64,000 nucleotides of DNA from assembly GCA_947625015.1 (NCBI GenBank), contig CANQMR010000002.1, positions 1 through 64,000 of the forward strand. The letters are read 5' to 3'. How positions within the stretch are numbered: position 1 is the stretch's first letter; each line of letters opens with the position of its first letter. The notes beneath the pieces were generated by a model. It saw only the letters and a program-made list of their open reading frames with translations, was not told where the DNA came from and made no database searches. The translations under genes and the position numbers were made by a program. Positions 4,141 to 38,463 of the stretch are shown here, piece by piece. The stretch is from an uncultured Lachnospiraceae bacterium (GTDB lineage Bacteria > Bacillota > Clostridia > Lachnospirales > Lachnospiraceae).

Positions 4141-4688
4141 TGCACCACTTCCGCCCCACGCATATATAATACAGCGTAAGCGGTATCTCTCGATTATCCT
4201 CTCTTCTTAGTAAAACCACCACAGGATAATCTTTCCCATTTTCCCGCACTGCCATCGGTTTTAAGAAATCCTGCCGCCGGGCCCTCCTGCATGTTTGATT
4301 GCACGTGCTTACGAAGAACTCACACCGGGAAGGGGTGACTGGGAAACATTTGCAGCCCCTTTGAAAACGCCGGTACTTGCGAAGGCCATGCGACAATCTG
4401 TTATTTAGCAGATAATGAACAGGGCCTTCGCTTATGTACCGCTGCGTTTTCAACAGAGCGCAAGCGTGGCTGCAAAATGTTTGCCCAGCACCCCAAACCC
4501 TGTGCTCAGACACTTCTTCGCACGTGCTTCATGCAGGAGGACCCGGCGGCGGATTTCTAAAAAACCGCGTGTCGGAAAAATTGGGAAAAGATTACCTTGT
4601 GGTGGGGTACACTGACATTCAGAGAGGATAATCGAGAGATATCCGCTGAAAATGCAATAGGATTGCGAATGGGGCGGAAGTGTTGGCA
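4141..4688. repeat. Long imperfect palindrome, copy 1 (about 548 nt)
   Basis: Almost the whole interval folds back on itself. The terminal inverted repeats of the conserved core are at 4180-4203 and 4622-4646 (sequence around TCTCTCGATTATCCT). Matched inner arms include 4216-4223 with 4598-4605, 4273-4280 with 4543-4550, and an apical stem 4396-4402 with 4407-4413 around a 4-nt loop. Outside the core a further 13-bp perfect stem (4146-4158 with 4670-4682) joins sequences not shared with copy 2. The core is about 85% or more identical by eye to 13812-14286 in the same orientation. Small ORFs inside are not conserved as proteins. It is a noncoding structured repeat, possibly MITE-like or an RNA element, lying just after a stop codon and upstream of the tRNA promoter. 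Confidence 0.92.
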
Positions 4689-12130: not shown

Positions 12131-13789
12131 ATGATTCAGGTTACAATCGGTGATAAAACTCATGAGGTGGAGGAAGGCGTTTCGCTTGAGGAATTAGCGG
12201 CAAAGTACGGCGTATGCGAAAAAGGGGATATCGTGCTGGCCTATATGGACAATCATTTGTGCGAACTTTACAAGACGGTACAGGAATCTAGCGAGGTCCG
12301 GTTTGTGTCCACAGCGGAGAAAATCGGATTTGATACCTATAAACGGAGCATGATTTTAATGATGATGAAGGCGTTCCGGGATGTGCTAAGGACCAAAGGC
12401 GCCACAGGCAGAATCCGGGTTTTGTTCTCTGTCAGTAAGGGCTTTTACTGCGAATTAGAAAGCAGGGAAGTAAAGCTTAGCCAGGAGCTTTTAAATGAAG
12501 TTGAGGACAAAATGAGGCAGCTGGTCCGGGCAGATATTCCCATTGTGAAAAGCACTTACAAATCCCACGATTTAATGAAGCGTTTTGAGGCGCAGGGCAG
12601 AAAGGATAAGGTGCAGCTTTTTAAATACCGCAGGGCCTCTAACGCCAATGTGTACCGGTTAGATGATTTTGAGGATTATTACTATGGATTTATGGTGACA
12701 TCCACAAGGTATCTCAAACTTTTTGCCCTCTATGCGTATGAGGACGGTTTTGTGTTGCAGCTTCCGGCCCGCTCGAACTTAGAGGAAATCGCAGAATTTA
12801 ATCCGCAGAAGAAGCTGTTTTCCGTATTAAAGCAGGCTGACGACTGGGGCGTCATGTTAAATGTGGATACCGTAGGTGGCTTAAACGACGCTATTGCCAA
12901 CGGGGAGATTAATGACCTGATGTTGGTGCAGGAAGCCCTTCAGGAGAAAAATATTGCCAAGATTGCGGAGAGAATCTGCAAGGAGGATAAGAAAATTATC
13001 TTAATTGCAGGCCCGAGCTCTTCCGGAAAAACTTCCTTTTCCCACAGACTGAGCATCCAGCTTAGGGCTATGGGAATGCGTCCCCACCCGGTGGCCCTTG
13101 ACAATTATTTTGTGAACCGGGAGCATACGCCGAAGGACGAGAACGGCAATTATGATTTTGAGTGCTTAGAGGCGGTGGACGTGGCGCAGTTCAATGAGGA
13201 TATGATGCGCCTGTTAAACGGAGAAGAGGTCAAAATGCCTACCTTTAATTTCCTGTTGGGAAAAAGAGAATACAGGGGCAACACCCTGAAATTAGAGGAA
13301 AGCGACGTACTGGTTATCGAGGGCATCCATGGCCTGAACCCCAAAATGTCAGAAAGGCTTCCGAACGACAGTAAATTTAAGATATATATCAGCGCATTAA
13401 CCCAGTTAAATGTAGACGAACACAACCGGGTGGCGACTACAGACGGGCGGCTGATCCGCCGGATCGTGCGGGATGCCAGAACCAGAGGCAATACGGCACA
13501 GATGACGATTTCCATGTGGGAGTCCGTAAGGCGGGGCGAGGAACACAATATATTCCCCTATCAGGAGGAAGCAGACGTTATGTTCAACTCTGCCCTGATC
13601 TATGAACTCAGCGTAATCAAGCCCTATGTGGAGCCCCTGTTATTTGCAATCCCCAAGGACGCCAAAGAATACCAGGAGGCCAAGCGCTTACTCAAATTCT
13701 TAGACTACTTTTTGGGCGTCGGCTCCGAAAACATACCCAACAACAGTATTCTCCGGGAATTTGTGGGCGGCAGTTGTTTCCCCGTCTGA
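12131..13789 (+). CDS. TGS domain-uridine kinase-like nucleoside kinase
   Basis: 552 residues. The N-terminal TGS domain (1-62) and an editing-like segment resembling threonyl-tRNA synthetase are fused to a P-loop kinase of the uridine kinase/phosphoribulokinase family. Walker A GPSSSGKT is at 294-301, with DNYFVNREHTPKDE near 330 and VLVIEGIHGLNP near 396. Proteins of this build are annotated as nucleoside kinases in clostridia and Thermotoga; the substrate and the purpose of the TGS part are unclear. The stop codon TGA (13787-13789) lies inside the outer left arm of hairpin repeat copy 2, so the 3' end of this CDS is part of the palindrome. Confidence 0.9.
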   Translation: MIQVTIGDKTHEVEEGVSLEELAAKYGVCEKGDIVLAYMDNHLCELYKTVQESSEVRFVSTAEKIGFDTYKRSMILMMMKAFRDVLRTKGATGRIRVLFSVSKGFYCELESREVKLSQELLNEVEDKMRQLVRADIPIVKSTYKSHDLMKRFEAQGRKDKVQLFKYRRASNANVYRLDDFEDYYYGFMVTSTRYLKLFALYAYEDGFVLQLPARSNLEEIAEFNPQKKLFSVLKQADDWGVMLNVDTVGGLNDAIANGEINDLMLVQEALQEKNIAKIAERICKEDKKIILIAGPSSSGKTSFSHRLSIQLRAMGMRPHPVALDNYFVNREHTPKDENGNYDFECLEAVDVAQFNEDMMRLLNGEEVKMPTFNFLLGKREYRGNTLKLEESDVLVIEGIHGLNPKMSERLPNDSKFKIYISALTQLNVDEHNRVATTDGRLIRRIVRDARTRGNTAQMTISMWESVRRGEEHNIFPYQEEADVMFNSALIYELSVIKPYVEPLLFAIPKDAKEYQEAKRLLKFLDYFLGVGSENIPNNSILREFVGGSCFPV

Positions 13790-14320
13790 CCCTGTATAAT
13801 TTTACCTTTTTGCGGGTATCTCTCGATTATCCTTAGACGTATATTTGTGAAACCGCCGCAGGATAATCTTTTCCCATTTTCCCGCACTGCCATCGGTTTT
13901 AAGAAATCCTGCTGCCGGACCCTCCTGCATATTAGATTGCACGTGCTTACGAAGAACTCGCGCCGGGAAGGGGTGGCTGGGAAACATTTGCAGCCCCTTT
14001 GAAAACGCCGGTACTTGCGAAGGCCCTGTAATATATTTGCTATTCAGCAGATAATGAACAGGGCCTTCGCTTATGTACCGCTGCGTTTTCGACAGAGCGC
14101 AAGCGTGGCTGCATAATGTTTGCCCAGCACCCCAAACCCGGCGCTCAGACACTTCTTCGCACGTGCAATATGCAGGAGGGCCCGGCAGCGGATTTCTAAA
14201 AAACCGCGTGTCGGGAAAATTGGGATAAGGATTACCTTGCGGCGGTAGTCCACGAATATTTCAGAGGATAATCGAGAGATACCCGCTTAAAAACCTTGAA
14301 ACAGGCAGGGTCAGACGGGG
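13780..14320. repeat. Long imperfect palindrome, copy 2 (about 541 nt)
   Basis: Second copy of the dispersed hairpin. The core 13812-14286 begins and ends with a 21-22 bp inverted repeat (13812-13833 with 14265-14286) and aligns along its length with 4180-4646. The inner arms pair (13853-13860 with 14238-14245; 13911-13918 with 14182-14189; 13960-13967 with 14137-14144). An apical 7-bp stem closes on loop ATTC. The outermost stem is a perfect 15 bp (13780-13794 with 14306-14320). Its left arm includes the last codons and stop of the upstream kinase gene. The outer stem sequence is unrelated to that of copy 1. No protein is conserved between copies. Confidence 0.92.
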
Positions 14321-14351
14321 CAAAAAAATGGGGAAAATGTGTCGGAAAAGG

Positions 14352-15247: not shown

Positions 15248-15297
15248 GCGTCGATATTCCGATGGGAAATGCGTACGCATAACGGTTATAGAAAAAT

Positions 15298-15660
15298 GAC
15301 TCAGACGATAAGCCGGGTTATGTCGTTGAATGGTCATCTATCTAGGCCGGCTGTTACCAGCGGGCTCAAGCGACCTACCCGAAAACGTGACGGGCCGCCA
15401 CATTGTTTTCTGTTCGGTCTTGCTTCGGATGGGGTTTACAGAGCCTGTCCTGTTACCAGAACAGCGGTGAGCTCTTACCTCGCCTTTCCACCCTTACCAG
15501 ACTAACCCTGCATGGCAGAGAAGACTGGCGGTATATTTCTGTTGCACTGGCCTGGGAGTCGCCTCCACCGGACGTTATCCGGCATCCTGCCCTGTGAAGC
15601 CCGGACTTTCCTCACCTGCAGCCTTTCGGCGTTGCAGCCGCGACCATTTGTCTGAGTCGG
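15298..15660 (-). ncRNA. rnpB: RNase P RNA
   Basis: The minus strand carries the conserved RNase P RNA blocks in order: GAGGAAAGTCCGGGC near the 5' end, ACAGAAA, GGCGAGGTAAGAGCTCACCG, TAGGTCGCTTGAGCCC, and AGATAGATGACC with ACATAACCCGGCTTAT at the 3' end. P1 is formed by 15650-15658 with 15298-15306 (GACTCAGAC complement). Length is about 360 nt. The catalytic RNA trims 5' leaders of pre-tRNAs such as the cluster at 4.8 kb. A promoter lies directly upstream. The mature 3' end is followed by TTTTT on the minus strand. Confidence 0.95.
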
Positions 15661-33934: not shown

Positions 33935-35698
33935 ATGAAATTAAACGAAGAGACAGAAGTGATAGTGGACAGGCTGGCTATCCGAAAAAATATAATGACA
34001 GTGAGTACATTGGCTAAAAATATTTCCGGCAGACCGGAGGATCTGGAGATTAAGTTTGCTATTAAATTCCAAAATGCCACCGAAACCCGGATTTTGCCAC
34101 TGCCAATTACCGATAACAGTTTTGACGAGCATGGGAATTGTATTGCCTATGCGGTTATGGAATACGAGTTAGACGCCCTGTTTGAAAATATGGATCTGAA
34201 TGAGTTTAAAGTGCTGGTGCAGGCGTATGACGGAAAGACATATGTCAATATCACTGTGGAAAATCAGGATTTTAATAAGGTGAAAGAGGAAAACGAATAT
34301 GCCTGCCTGCTGGAGGATGGGCAGATTGTTATCCGCCGGAAAAAGCCTGTTAAGCTGTATAAGCGGAACTGGTTTATTTCCCTGCTTTGCAGCATTTACC
34401 GCATACTGGAGTTTGTGATCGGCACTCTGCTGATTCCGTTGTTCCTCTTAGACGGCGTGTATGTGGTAATTCTCGGTAAACACAGAAGATTTTTGGAGGA
34501 GACCTACGGGGGCAGCCAGTTAAAGCGCACGCTTCTGTTTGCAAAGTGGAGATGGTCTGCCTTTTGCCGGCTTACGATTAACATGGCGACGGTAAAAAGG
34601 ATGATCTTAAATATAACCGCCTCTTTTCTGACATTGTTTTGTAAAAAAGACTGTATTTTATTTGCTTCTGTCAGAAGAAACGACCTGACCGGCAATATAG
34701 CTTATGTCAATGAGGTGTTGCAGAAAAAGGGAGCCAAAGTATTATTCTGGTTAGAACCGGGCAAGACCAAGTTCATGCCTTTTTCCAAAGTCTTTTCTTT
34801 GGCTTATAAGATTGCCAGAAGCCGGGTGGTGGCTGTAGATGACTTTACGCCGGTATTTAATGATATATGGGCTATGCGGCACTGTAAACAGATTCAGCTC
34901 TGGCATGCCTGCGGGGCGTTTAAGACCTTTGGATTTTCCAGAATAGGCAAGGAGGGCGGGCCGAATCAGACCAACCGCAATCACAGAAGTTATGATTATG
35001 CCATTGTCAGTTCAGCGGAAATCTGCCGGTTCTATGCAGAGGGGTTTGGTATTGATGAGAAGAATGTAAAAGCATTAGGCGTTCCCAGAACAGATGATTT
35101 CTTCCGGGAGGATTACAAGGTGGAAATCAGGAAAAAACTGTATGAGCAGTATCCCGTATTAAAGGGAAAAAAGGTGATACTCTTTGCCCCCACCTTTCGT
35201 GGAAATGGAGTGAATACGGCCAATTATCCTTTTCAAAGATTCGATTTAAAGCAGGTGCTTTCTGCGATAGATGATGAATACATGGTAATCATCAAACATC
35301 ATCCATTTGTTACGGAAAAGCATCCGGTAGCGGAAGAGATAAAGGACAGGGTGTTAGATTTGTCTAAGGAATCGGAGATTAACGACCTGCTGTTTATTAC
35401 AGACGTGCTGATTACGGATTATTCTTCCGTTATTTTTGAGGCGTCCCTTCTGGATATTCCCATGCTTTTTTATGCGTTTGACTTAGAGGAATACACAGTA
35501 AACCGGGATTTTTACTATCCGTTTAAAAATTTTGTTCCGGGGAAAATTGTCAGAAATATTAAACAGATTCAGGAGGCAATCCGGGATTCCGACTATGAGC
35601 AGCAGAAGGTGGAGACCTTCAAACACAGATTTTTCGATGCGCTGGATGGAAAATCATCAGAGCGGGTCGCCGATTTTATGCTGGAGCTTCTGAAATAA
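33935..35698 (+). CDS. CDP-polyol phosphotransferase, long form (TagF/TarL-like)
   Basis: 587 residues. The N-terminal about 130 residues form a beta-rich module not needed by shorter family members. A hydrophobic segment near 145-180 (WFISLLCSIYRILEFVIGTL and onward) suggests membrane contact. The catalytic domain has QLWHACGAFKTFGFS near 322, ALGVPRTDDFFRED near 385, FAPTFRGNG near 416, IKHHPFV near 450 and LITDYSSVIFEASLLDIP near 492. It is likely to polymerise polyol phosphate. Weak ribosome site (GGTG) before ATG 33935. Second of three family copies in this cluster. Confidence 0.88.
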   Translation: MKLNEETEVIVDRLAIRKNIMTVSTLAKNISGRPEDLEIKFAIKFQNATETRILPLPITDNSFDEHGNCIAYAVMEYELDALFENMDLNEFKVLVQAYDGKTYVNITVENQDFNKVKEENEYACLLEDGQIVIRRKKPVKLYKRNWFISLLCSIYRILEFVIGTLLIPLFLLDGVYVVILGKHRRFLEETYGGSQLKRTLLFAKWRWSAFCRLTINMATVKRMILNITASFLTLFCKKDCILFASVRRNDLTGNIAYVNEVLQKKGAKVLFWLEPGKTKFMPFSKVFSLAYKIARSRVVAVDDFTPVFNDIWAMRHCKQIQLWHACGAFKTFGFSRIGKEGGPNQTNRNHRSYDYAIVSSAEICRFYAEGFGIDEKNVKALGVPRTDDFFREDYKVEIRKKLYEQYPVLKGKKVILFAPTFRGNGVNTANYPFQRFDLKQVLSAIDDEYMVIIKHHPFVTEKHPVAEEIKDRVLDLSKESEINDLLFITDVLITDYSSVIFEASLLDIPMLFYAFDLEEYTVNRDFYYPFKNFVPGKIVRNIKQIQEAIRDSDYEQQKVETFKHRFFDALDGKSSERVADFMLELLK

Positions 35699-37312: not shown

Positions 37313-38463
37313 TGATTCGACATATCTGCAAATGGATAGTGTTTAAGGCGCTGTATCCGGCGTGTTATTTTCTGGGCAGACTAAGGCGGATTAAGCCGGA
37401 TAAAATCATCTTTGTAGAAAATCATGCCGGGCAGTTATCAGATAATTTTTTGTTGTTACATGAGGCTCTGCTGCAAAAGGGGTATACTATTGATGTGCAT
37501 TACCTTAAGGTTTCCTCTTCAGGCTGGGGTGCGACAGTGTTAAGATCACTGCGGCTGATCTGGAGCATGGGCAATGCGCGCTGTGTGTTTTTATGTGAAT
37601 CCAACAGTCTGTTTGGCGCTTTTTCTCTCCGAAAGGGAACTAAGCTGGTTCAGCTCTGGCATGCCTGCGGAGCTTTTAAAAAGTGGGGATACAGCGCGGC
37701 AGATCAGAATTTTGGAGAGAGCAAAAAAGAATTGGATATGTTTTCCGGACATCGGAATTATGATTTGGTGCCTGTGAGCGGCGATGCTGTGTGCTGGGCA
37801 TATGAGGAGGCTTTTGGCCTTCAGGGAAAAAAAGGCGTGGTGAAGGCGTTAGGCGTCAGCCGGACAGATGTGTATTTTGATGAGAACAGGCTTTGGCAGG
37901 CCAGAGAACATTTGGCTTCGTTGGATATTCCGGTAAATGGGCGCAGGATTATATTATATGCGCCAACTTTCCGCGGAGAGATTCGGACAGCAAAAGCGCC
38001 TGACGGTCTGAATTATACACAGTTTATTTCCCGGAAGGATGAATATGTGGTGCTGATTAAACAGCATCCTTTTGTAAAAGAAAGAACAATACTGCCGGAA
38101 AACTGCCGGGATTTTTGCTTTGAAATCCGGGATGCGCTTTCTATTGAAGAGCTGCTTATGGTATCGGATGTGCTGATTACCGATTATTCCTCGGTTATAT
38201 TTGAGTATTCCCTTATGGAAAAGCCGATGCTGTTTTTCGCTTATGACCTGGATGCGTATTATGATGAGCGGGGTTTTTATTATCCTTACCGGGAGTTTGT
38301 TCCGGGGCCTGTGGTTGAGACAACCGAAGAGCTTATGGCGGAGTTGGGAAGGCTTGGAGAAGTTGACAGGAATAGAATAGAACGCTTCCACAGACAATAT
38401 ATGAATGGATGCGATGGACATGCCACAGAACGAATCGTTGAGTATGTATTAAACCGGAAATAA
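37312..38463 (+). CDS. CDP-polyol phosphotransferase family protein (third copy)
   Basis: 383 residues, TagF/TarL-like catalytic domain: QLWHACGAFKKWGYSA near residue 116, ALGVSRTDVYFDE near 179, YAPTFRGEIR near 216, LIKQHPFVKER near 247 and LITDYSSVIFEYSLMEKP near 287. Similar in its core to the 33935-35698 product, but without the long N-terminal module. Coupled to the export ATPase by TAATG and directly followed by tarI, so it probably uses CDP-ribitol. Starts ATG 37312. Confidence 0.88.
   Translation: MIRHICKWIVFKALYPACYFLGRLRRIKPDKIIFVENHAGQLSDNFLLLHEALLQKGYTIDVHYLKVSSSGWGATVLRSLRLIWSMGNARCVFLCESNSLFGAFSLRKGTKLVQLWHACGAFKKWGYSAADQNFGESKKELDMFSGHRNYDLVPVSGDAVCWAYEEAFGLQGKKGVVKALGVSRTDVYFDENRLWQAREHLASLDIPVNGRRIILYAPTFRGEIRTAKAPDGLNYTQFISRKDEYVVLIKQHPFVKERTILPENCRDFCFEIRDALSIEELLMVSDVLITDYSSVIFEYSLMEKPMLFFAYDLDAYYDERGFYYPYREFVPGPVVETTEELMAELGRLGEVDRNRIERFHRQYMNGCDGHATERIVEYVLNRK

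Follow-up and report, generated by a model that had tools for sequence, protein, structure and literature searches.

Two long hairpins in the window

The window, i.e., the whole stretch of 64,000 nucleotides that was analysed, carries two non-coding near-palindromes in identical orientation (4141-4688 and 13780-14320, here copies 1 and 2), both present with the bases that had been read there beforehand. In the predicted folds, both intervals form single rods whose stability is far above that of shuffled sequences, with energies of -300.6 kcal/mol for copy 1 (z -20.0) and -337.1 kcal/mol for copy 2 (z -26.9), and 0/100 shuffles were as low in either case. The original prediction described a repeat of ~0.5 kb; the near-palindromes are real, but the part shared by the two copies is ~470 nt, and their outermost arms are unrelated in sequence to each other and complementary within each copy. 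The features are as follows.

Copy 1
4143..4685, + strand: whole self-complementary rod, arms and core (folding, arm analysis)
4143..4181, + strand: left outer arm, copy-specific (blastn, arm complementarity)
4182..4652, + strand: part common to copy 2 (blastn)
4340..4485, + strand: conserved apical core (covariance model R1, 98.2 bits)
4458..4465, + strand: GC-GCAA-GC mini-hairpin with GNRA loop, located in the core's asymmetric bulge (sequence, alignment A1)
4653..4685, + strand: right outer arm, copy-specific, complementary to the left arm (blastn, arm complementarity)

Copy 2
13771..14330, + strand: whole rod (folding, arm analysis)
13771..13814, + strand: left outer arm, overlapping the last codons (..FPV*) of a kinase-like gene at 12131-13789 (gene named by eye)
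13815..14292, + strand: part common to copy 1 (blastn)
13978..14124, + strand: conserved apical core (covariance model R1, 94.9 bits)
14097..14104, + strand: GC-GCAA-GC mini-hairpin (sequence; motif as in alignment A1)
14293..14330, + strand: right outer arm, in which the end of the kinase-like gene recurs as reverse complement

Five differences between the copies had been proposed to preserve pairing, and each was verified as a double change that keeps the pair: A4218-T4603 of copy 1 is G13855-C14243 in copy 2, A4221-T4600 is G13858-C14240, C4275-G4548 is T13913-A14187, G4293-C4530 is A13931-T14169, and A4324-T4503 is G13962-C14142. The apical 7-bp stem holds one G-T pair per copy, at a different position in each, as judged by eye from sequence and fold. 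Over the 206 pairs predicted for copy 1, copy 2 shows 166 identical pairs, 16 single changes, 15 double changes (11 still paired), and 9 gapped pairs.

Two further features were noted in the window. An ordinary RNase P RNA (class A) is located close to copy 2 on the minus strand (15293-15659), and a 50-nt direct repeat with 80% identity (34885-34934 and 37641-37690) stands, as far as seen, outside the palindrome family.

The family and its conserved core

Both copies noticed at first exist, but they are a small part of the total: blastn detected ~30 long copies in the source genome, plus fragments, and the core model R1 gave 54 matches, weak and strong ones counted together. Within the genus, R1 core matches are present in 26/26 genomes, the source genome included, with 1-93 per genome. 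In wider samples, which were scored with stricter filters so that all counts are lower bounds, the core was found in at least 119/299 Lachnospiraceae genomes (at least 118/298 genera), in at least 23/246 genomes of the order (22 from Lachnospiraceae and one weak match outside the family), and in at least 5/398 genomes of the phylum (four from Lachnospiraceae and one, G909, outside the class). The presence of the core in G909, where six core matches of eight scored were recorded (L278, L279, L280), suggests horizontal spread. In the species collection, 45 stretches contain the exact right-hand core pattern; these are assigned to Lachnospiraceae, Eisenbergiella porci, and unplaced Clostridia/Clostridiales. 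The 392-nt centre gave no match in phage and plasmid collections at the settings used, and one exact core pattern gave none in viral contigs.

The earlier statement that no named family matches stands as far as Rfam and paper searches go. At the gathering score, Rfam returned only tRNAs and RNase P across the whole window; the relaxed search gave 0 matches for the element itself and, for six loci from relatives, six matches below threshold, which all fall in L034 outside its core. A search of the open-licence literature found no earlier description of the family. The hairpins belong to a large and apparently undescribed family of mobile-looking palindromic repeats in gut Lachnospiraceae. Copies at or near contig ends are common (L292-L295, L306-L309, L026, L029); the repeats seem to break short-read assemblies, so that copy numbers in such genomes are lower bounds. 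Two other arrangements were also observed, including tandem direct arrays of the core in genome G159, with periods of 164 and 187 bp (L119 5129-5733, L120 4426-4912), and inverted doublets (minus then plus strand, ~40-100 bp apart) in L121, L273, L274, L275, L276, and L277.

Stems vary between families, whereas an apical core of ~110 nt, with an extrahelical GNRA mini-hairpin, is retained. Besides the source genome and its close relative G023, nine further genomes of the genus match the centre of copy 1 at the tip only; when ten such places in relatives were folded (nine stretches covered the tip), the hairpins obtained differed in their stems but shared the tip. Alignment A1 was built from 23 tips, eight from the source genome and 15 from relatives, a 24th candidate (L048) being omitted because its left arm looked unrelated. 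From A1, RNAalifold recovered the nested structure unaided, with double changes in 11/20 pairs; in a structure drawn by eye for these sequences, 16/26 pairs have double changes, and the covariation score was 0.308 versus no more than 0.120 in controls. A larger core alignment of 59 matches from 48 loci was fitted to R1, so its figures lean towards the model: 94% of pair cells are standard pairs, and double changes occur in 25/26 pairs. Its covariation reaches 0.676 versus 0.186 in shuffles and at most 0.147 with slid partners, in controls that do not model phylogeny. The number of further pair types in the core is less special, being reached by 42/500 shuffles.

Between two stems of the core lies an asymmetric bulge of the form A-GC-GNRA-GC-G. 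The tetraloop is GNRA in 58/59 aligned core matches (the exception is AAAA), the closing pair of the mini-hairpin changes from C-G to U-A in nine of them, and the unpaired T, TT, TA, and A of the core are at least 95% conserved. These conserved unpaired bases and the GNRA loop point to conservation of a folded strand, either RNA or single-stranded DNA. G-T pairs make up 16/1438 standard pairs of the core (1.1%) versus 52/767 (6.8%) in 36 tRNAs (Fisher p 1.3e-12), and 2.3% of standard pairs in the long rods.

Insertion sites, mobility and remodelling

Copies in the source genome sit between ORFs, genes being taken here as plain ORFs of at least 100 or at least 90 aa, some of them cut at stretch ends. 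The outer end of the rod is a median of 4 nt from ORF 3' ends (within 25 nt in 20/23) and a median of 98 nt from ORF 5' ends (within 25 nt in 3/31). Among young copies, which have terminal repeats, 3' ends lie within 25 nt in 8/11 cases and 5' ends in 5/15. A preference for 3' ends, whether of insertion or of survival, is therefore clear in the source genome and weaker in the young copies. Relative to the gene ending into the element, the core is sense in eight cases and antisense in 15.

The suggestion that the hairpin is a mobile element is supported by the dispersed copies and by two features of relatives from the same genus. In G013, G017, and G025, the element is 203-211 bp long with terminal inverted repeats (TAGG..TTGC or GTTAC..), which were not recognised at the window copies. 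Both ends could be recognised at 14 of 45 loci from relatives, and nine of these 14 elements are flanked by direct target duplications of 7-10 bp, versus 2/182 mismatched flank pairs, although true ends were picked for the best repeat and the mismatched controls were not re-picked. Perfect 8-bp duplications were seen by eye at the 205-bp L346 and at L332, L333, and L336 (54-55 bp), and duplications at L301, L319, and L334 were seen by eye outside the 9/14 count. Given the terminal repeats and direct duplications, units with terminal repeats have therefore transposed. At the window copies, their sister copies, and the other long copies of the source genome, inspection of 25-nt flanks by eye found no direct duplication. 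G017 also has core-less remnants of 54-59 bp, of which three of five carry perfect 8-bp duplications; by eye, their junctions fall at short direct repeats within the full element, and either independent movement or loss of the core in situ could have produced them.

No autonomous partner was found for the element in the genomes looked at. One end pattern, searched in four genomes, gave 30 matches in G017, one in G025, and none in G000 and G005, and no transposon was recognised in the 15 stretches that were read. A Y1 transposase was rejected as the mobiliser, having 0 matches in the source genome and no association with the core across 299 genomes (62/119 core-bearing genomes versus 112/180 others, p 0.09). 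No autonomous element with a gene between paired cores was recognised in the three stretches read for ORFs, the ORF at the orthologous L271/L272 being polysaccharide-deacetylase-like and that of L273 nucleosidase-like by eye.

Comparison with G023 covered 27 copies, of which 14 had both flanks on one G023 stretch with an element between; spacers below 200 bp were discarded and stretches were mostly picked around matches, so that this comparison could not report empty sites. Among the remaining copies listed, none had both flanks on a single G023 stretch, and a fifteenth site, L010, was compared separately. In a flank search made for 12 copies regardless of the element, five had both flanks on one contig, all at the spacing of a filled site, and the remaining copies were at contig ends, had one side only, or had no flank found. 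The flanks of the comparable elements are 94.7-99.7% identical. At 5/14 sites the element is inverted in place (L001, which is window copy 1, L009, L014, L016, and L025), with a match of 90-95% in the inverted comparison versus 68-71% in the uninverted one; L019 is of mixed orientation, partly inverted (0.80 and 0.87), and orientation is kept at the other 8/14 sites.

Changes in pairs were counted at 13 of the 14 sites (L019 excluded) and L010, using pairs from the predicted fold of the source-genome copy. These 14 orthologous copies have 2924 paired positions, with 158 single changes and 38 double ones, versus 4.7 double changes expected at a uniform rate or ~8 from displaced partners (30/11,195), a five- to eightfold excess. 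Pairing is retained in 31/38 double changes, and 96/158 single changes break pairs. Substitutions per site, from nine same-orientation pairs, are 0.058-0.084 in the outer arms, 0.031-0.034 in the flanks, and 0.023-0.027 in the core.

Origin of the compensatory changes and nature of the element

Template switching between the arms of an inverted repeat, which homogenises arms and inverts spacers, is documented in the part of PMC8604942 consulted, and in that of PMC8794818 it was proposed to create and maintain hairpins. Two sources of the double changes were put forward in the original prediction, namely selection acting on a folded RNA and quasi-palindrome correction. Since the orientation of the core relative to the gene is mixed and flips, RNA selection on the long stem is not supported; the in-place inversions, the excess of double changes, and the few G-T pairs support quasi-palindrome correction. 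The double-change excess together with the rarity of G-T therefore makes template switching of DNA between the arms a better account of the compensatory changes than RNA selection; these changes are real and best read as the product of a DNA-level process on a mobile palindrome. Recombination between the arms could invert the centre as well, without template switching.

We consider it probable that the hairpins are Lachnospiraceae-wide, non-autonomous, MITE-like palindromic repeats, whose arms are remodelled by DNA template switching and whose folded core is recognised. Each member would be a long imperfect inverted repeat with the conserved ~110-nt folded core at its tip. Insertion of units with terminal repeats would often take place directly downstream of stop codons and would duplicate 7-10 bp of the target, as judged from the relatives and presumed for the window copies. 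Replication forks might then switch template between the arms of the long quasi-palindrome, which would copy one arm onto the other and give the observed 'compensatory' double changes, and would also invert the centre in place, as observed. Sometimes the centre may be deleted, to judge from the 54-59 bp remnants of one relative. The GNRA mini-hairpin and fixed unpaired bases of the core are probably kept because the folded strand, as RNA or single-stranded DNA, is recognised by some factor. Several observations count against this explanation: no direct duplication was seen at the window copies or their sister copies, no autonomous partner was found in the genomes looked at, Y1 transposase is neither present in the source genome nor associated with the core, left outer arms differ between copies and match only their own right arm, single changes outnumber double ones (158 versus 38) with 96 of them breaking pairs, the choice of ends favoured true copies in the duplication test, the 3' preference is weak in young copies, 42/500 shuffles reach the number of further pair types, and the strict GNRA loop is an RNA-like feature.

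Tentatively, the core might instead be a single-stranded DNA recognition site of the attC or REP kind, bound by a putative HUH or tyrosine recombinase that would move the folded strand. Occurrence of the core in 118/298 genera of the family, the extrahelical hairpin in 58/59 aligned matches, the few G-T pairs, the location behind stop codons, and the inverted doublets, as in BIMEs, would all be consistent with such a site; however, a transposase that works on the element's ends is suggested by the direct duplications and the terminal repeats, and the source genome is without Y1 transposase. It is unlikely that the rod or core is a structured non-coding RNA, transcribed and acting as RNA, with selection on pairing keeping the compensatory changes. 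Core covariation above the slid and shuffled controls, the tetraloop with its exchanged closing pair, and the conserved unpaired bases are as expected of an RNA, but G-T pairs are scarce compared with tRNAs, the core runs in either direction with respect to the gene that ends into it (8:15), the element is inverted at 5/14 orthologous sites, stems are unrelated between families, and Rfam holds no match to the element. It also seems improbable that the hairpins represent a new kind of mobile element, in which the conserved folded core (RNA or single-stranded DNA) would be the mobile or recognised unit, the arms would differ between families and copies, and template switching would keep, extend, and flip the hairpin.

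The outer arms were analysed in 29/30 copies (L029, cut by a contig end, was dropped). Within the outermost 25 nt, the exact complementary run is at or above the 99th percentile of mismatched pairs in 28/29 copies, with a median of 13 versus 4 for mismatched pairs, although arm ends were set by maximising complementarity, which favours true pairs, and the mismatched control was not so set. Between copies, the similarity of left arms does not exceed chance (0.40), yet each left arm matches its own right arm. The arms are pyrimidine-rich on the left and purine-rich on the right, and compared with the adjoining outer 15 nt they have higher GC (0.48 versus 0.34) and higher left-side pyrimidine (0.70 versus 0.52). 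Rods in the source genome reach 586 bp. As possible origins of the arms, older palindromes, snap-back copying at insertion, or later extension by template switching may be considered.

Snap-back synthesis at insertion, by which the outer arms would be inverted copies of the target flank, is a doubtful account. At copy 2, the last codons of the kinase-like gene recur inverted on the far side, and this C-terminus is identical in 24/24 loci printed, those of the source genome and G023 included; among 26 kinase-like loci searched, the element is downstream only in these two genomes and upstream in L170. The recurrence, which concerns only 7-10 coding nucleotides, suggests that flank may have been copied into the arm, and arms overlap the ORF 3' end by 10-21 nt in 5/23 cases. 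Against snap-back stand the composition of the arms, richer in GC and left-side pyrimidine than the sequence just outside, and the direct, not inverted, duplications of young copies. An inverted target duplication, first favoured from the kinase-like site, was lowered by this arm composition and the direct duplications of relatives. Outward growth of the arms up to the stop codon was weakened as young copies are also near 3' ends (8/11 within 25 nt, though 5/15 of their 5' ends are as well), and a role of the arms as terminators was rejected, no consistent T-run being seen by eye (L008 has one ~10 nt out). Entry of the core into loops of pre-existing palindromes (other MITEs or terminators) that became the outer arms is quite improbable. 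One core does lie in different stems across genomes and a 20-bp inverted repeat flanks L034 by eye, but the T-run is inconsistent, the remnants of 54-59 bp resemble, by eye, products of deletion at short direct repeats within the full element, and the arms extend into coding ends.

Like bacterial MITEs, the element is non-coding and dispersed, with terminal inverted repeats and short direct duplications in relatives; unlike them, it has a conserved folded core with its own covariation and forms rods of up to 586 bp with copy-specific arms, and no transposase partner was found in the genomes looked at. Integron attC sites are imperfect palindromes with extrahelical bases, located behind a stop codon and poorly conserved in the stem. 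The element resembles them in all these respects, but it is dispersed in the chromosome and has direct target duplications in relatives. REPs are located behind genes, as is the element. It further shares with REP/BIME/REPIN sequences, which have RAYT (Y1) transposases, as presented in the parts of PMC2817692 and PMC3116915 consulted, the extragenic palindromes and, in relatives, the inverted doublets, but it is much longer, has a GNRA-bearing conserved core, and has no Y1 transposase in its own genome. Arm homogenisation and spacer inversion are as in template-switch (quasi-palindrome) mutation in the sections of PMC8604942 and PMC8794818 seen; the spacer inversions of PMC8604942 cause 2-5 substitutions in yeast genes, whereas centres of several hundred bp appear inverted in the element.

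The family offers a many-copy natural record of apparent template switching at long bacterial palindromes, with dozens of loci in two close genomes and with both inversion and arm homogenisation visible in one repeat family. RNA function of a dispersed bacterial hairpin is not proved by compensatory double changes alone, and the G-T share and in-place inversion are practical discriminators. The analysis further reveals, in a major group of gut bacteria, a core that is conserved across the family and has no assigned function or mobilising enzyme, and this core is the part that deserves functional work. Finally, we also observed that chromosomal junctions are exchanged at element copies between the source genome (L003, L004) and G023 (L128, L129), as expected of recombination between copies of the element.
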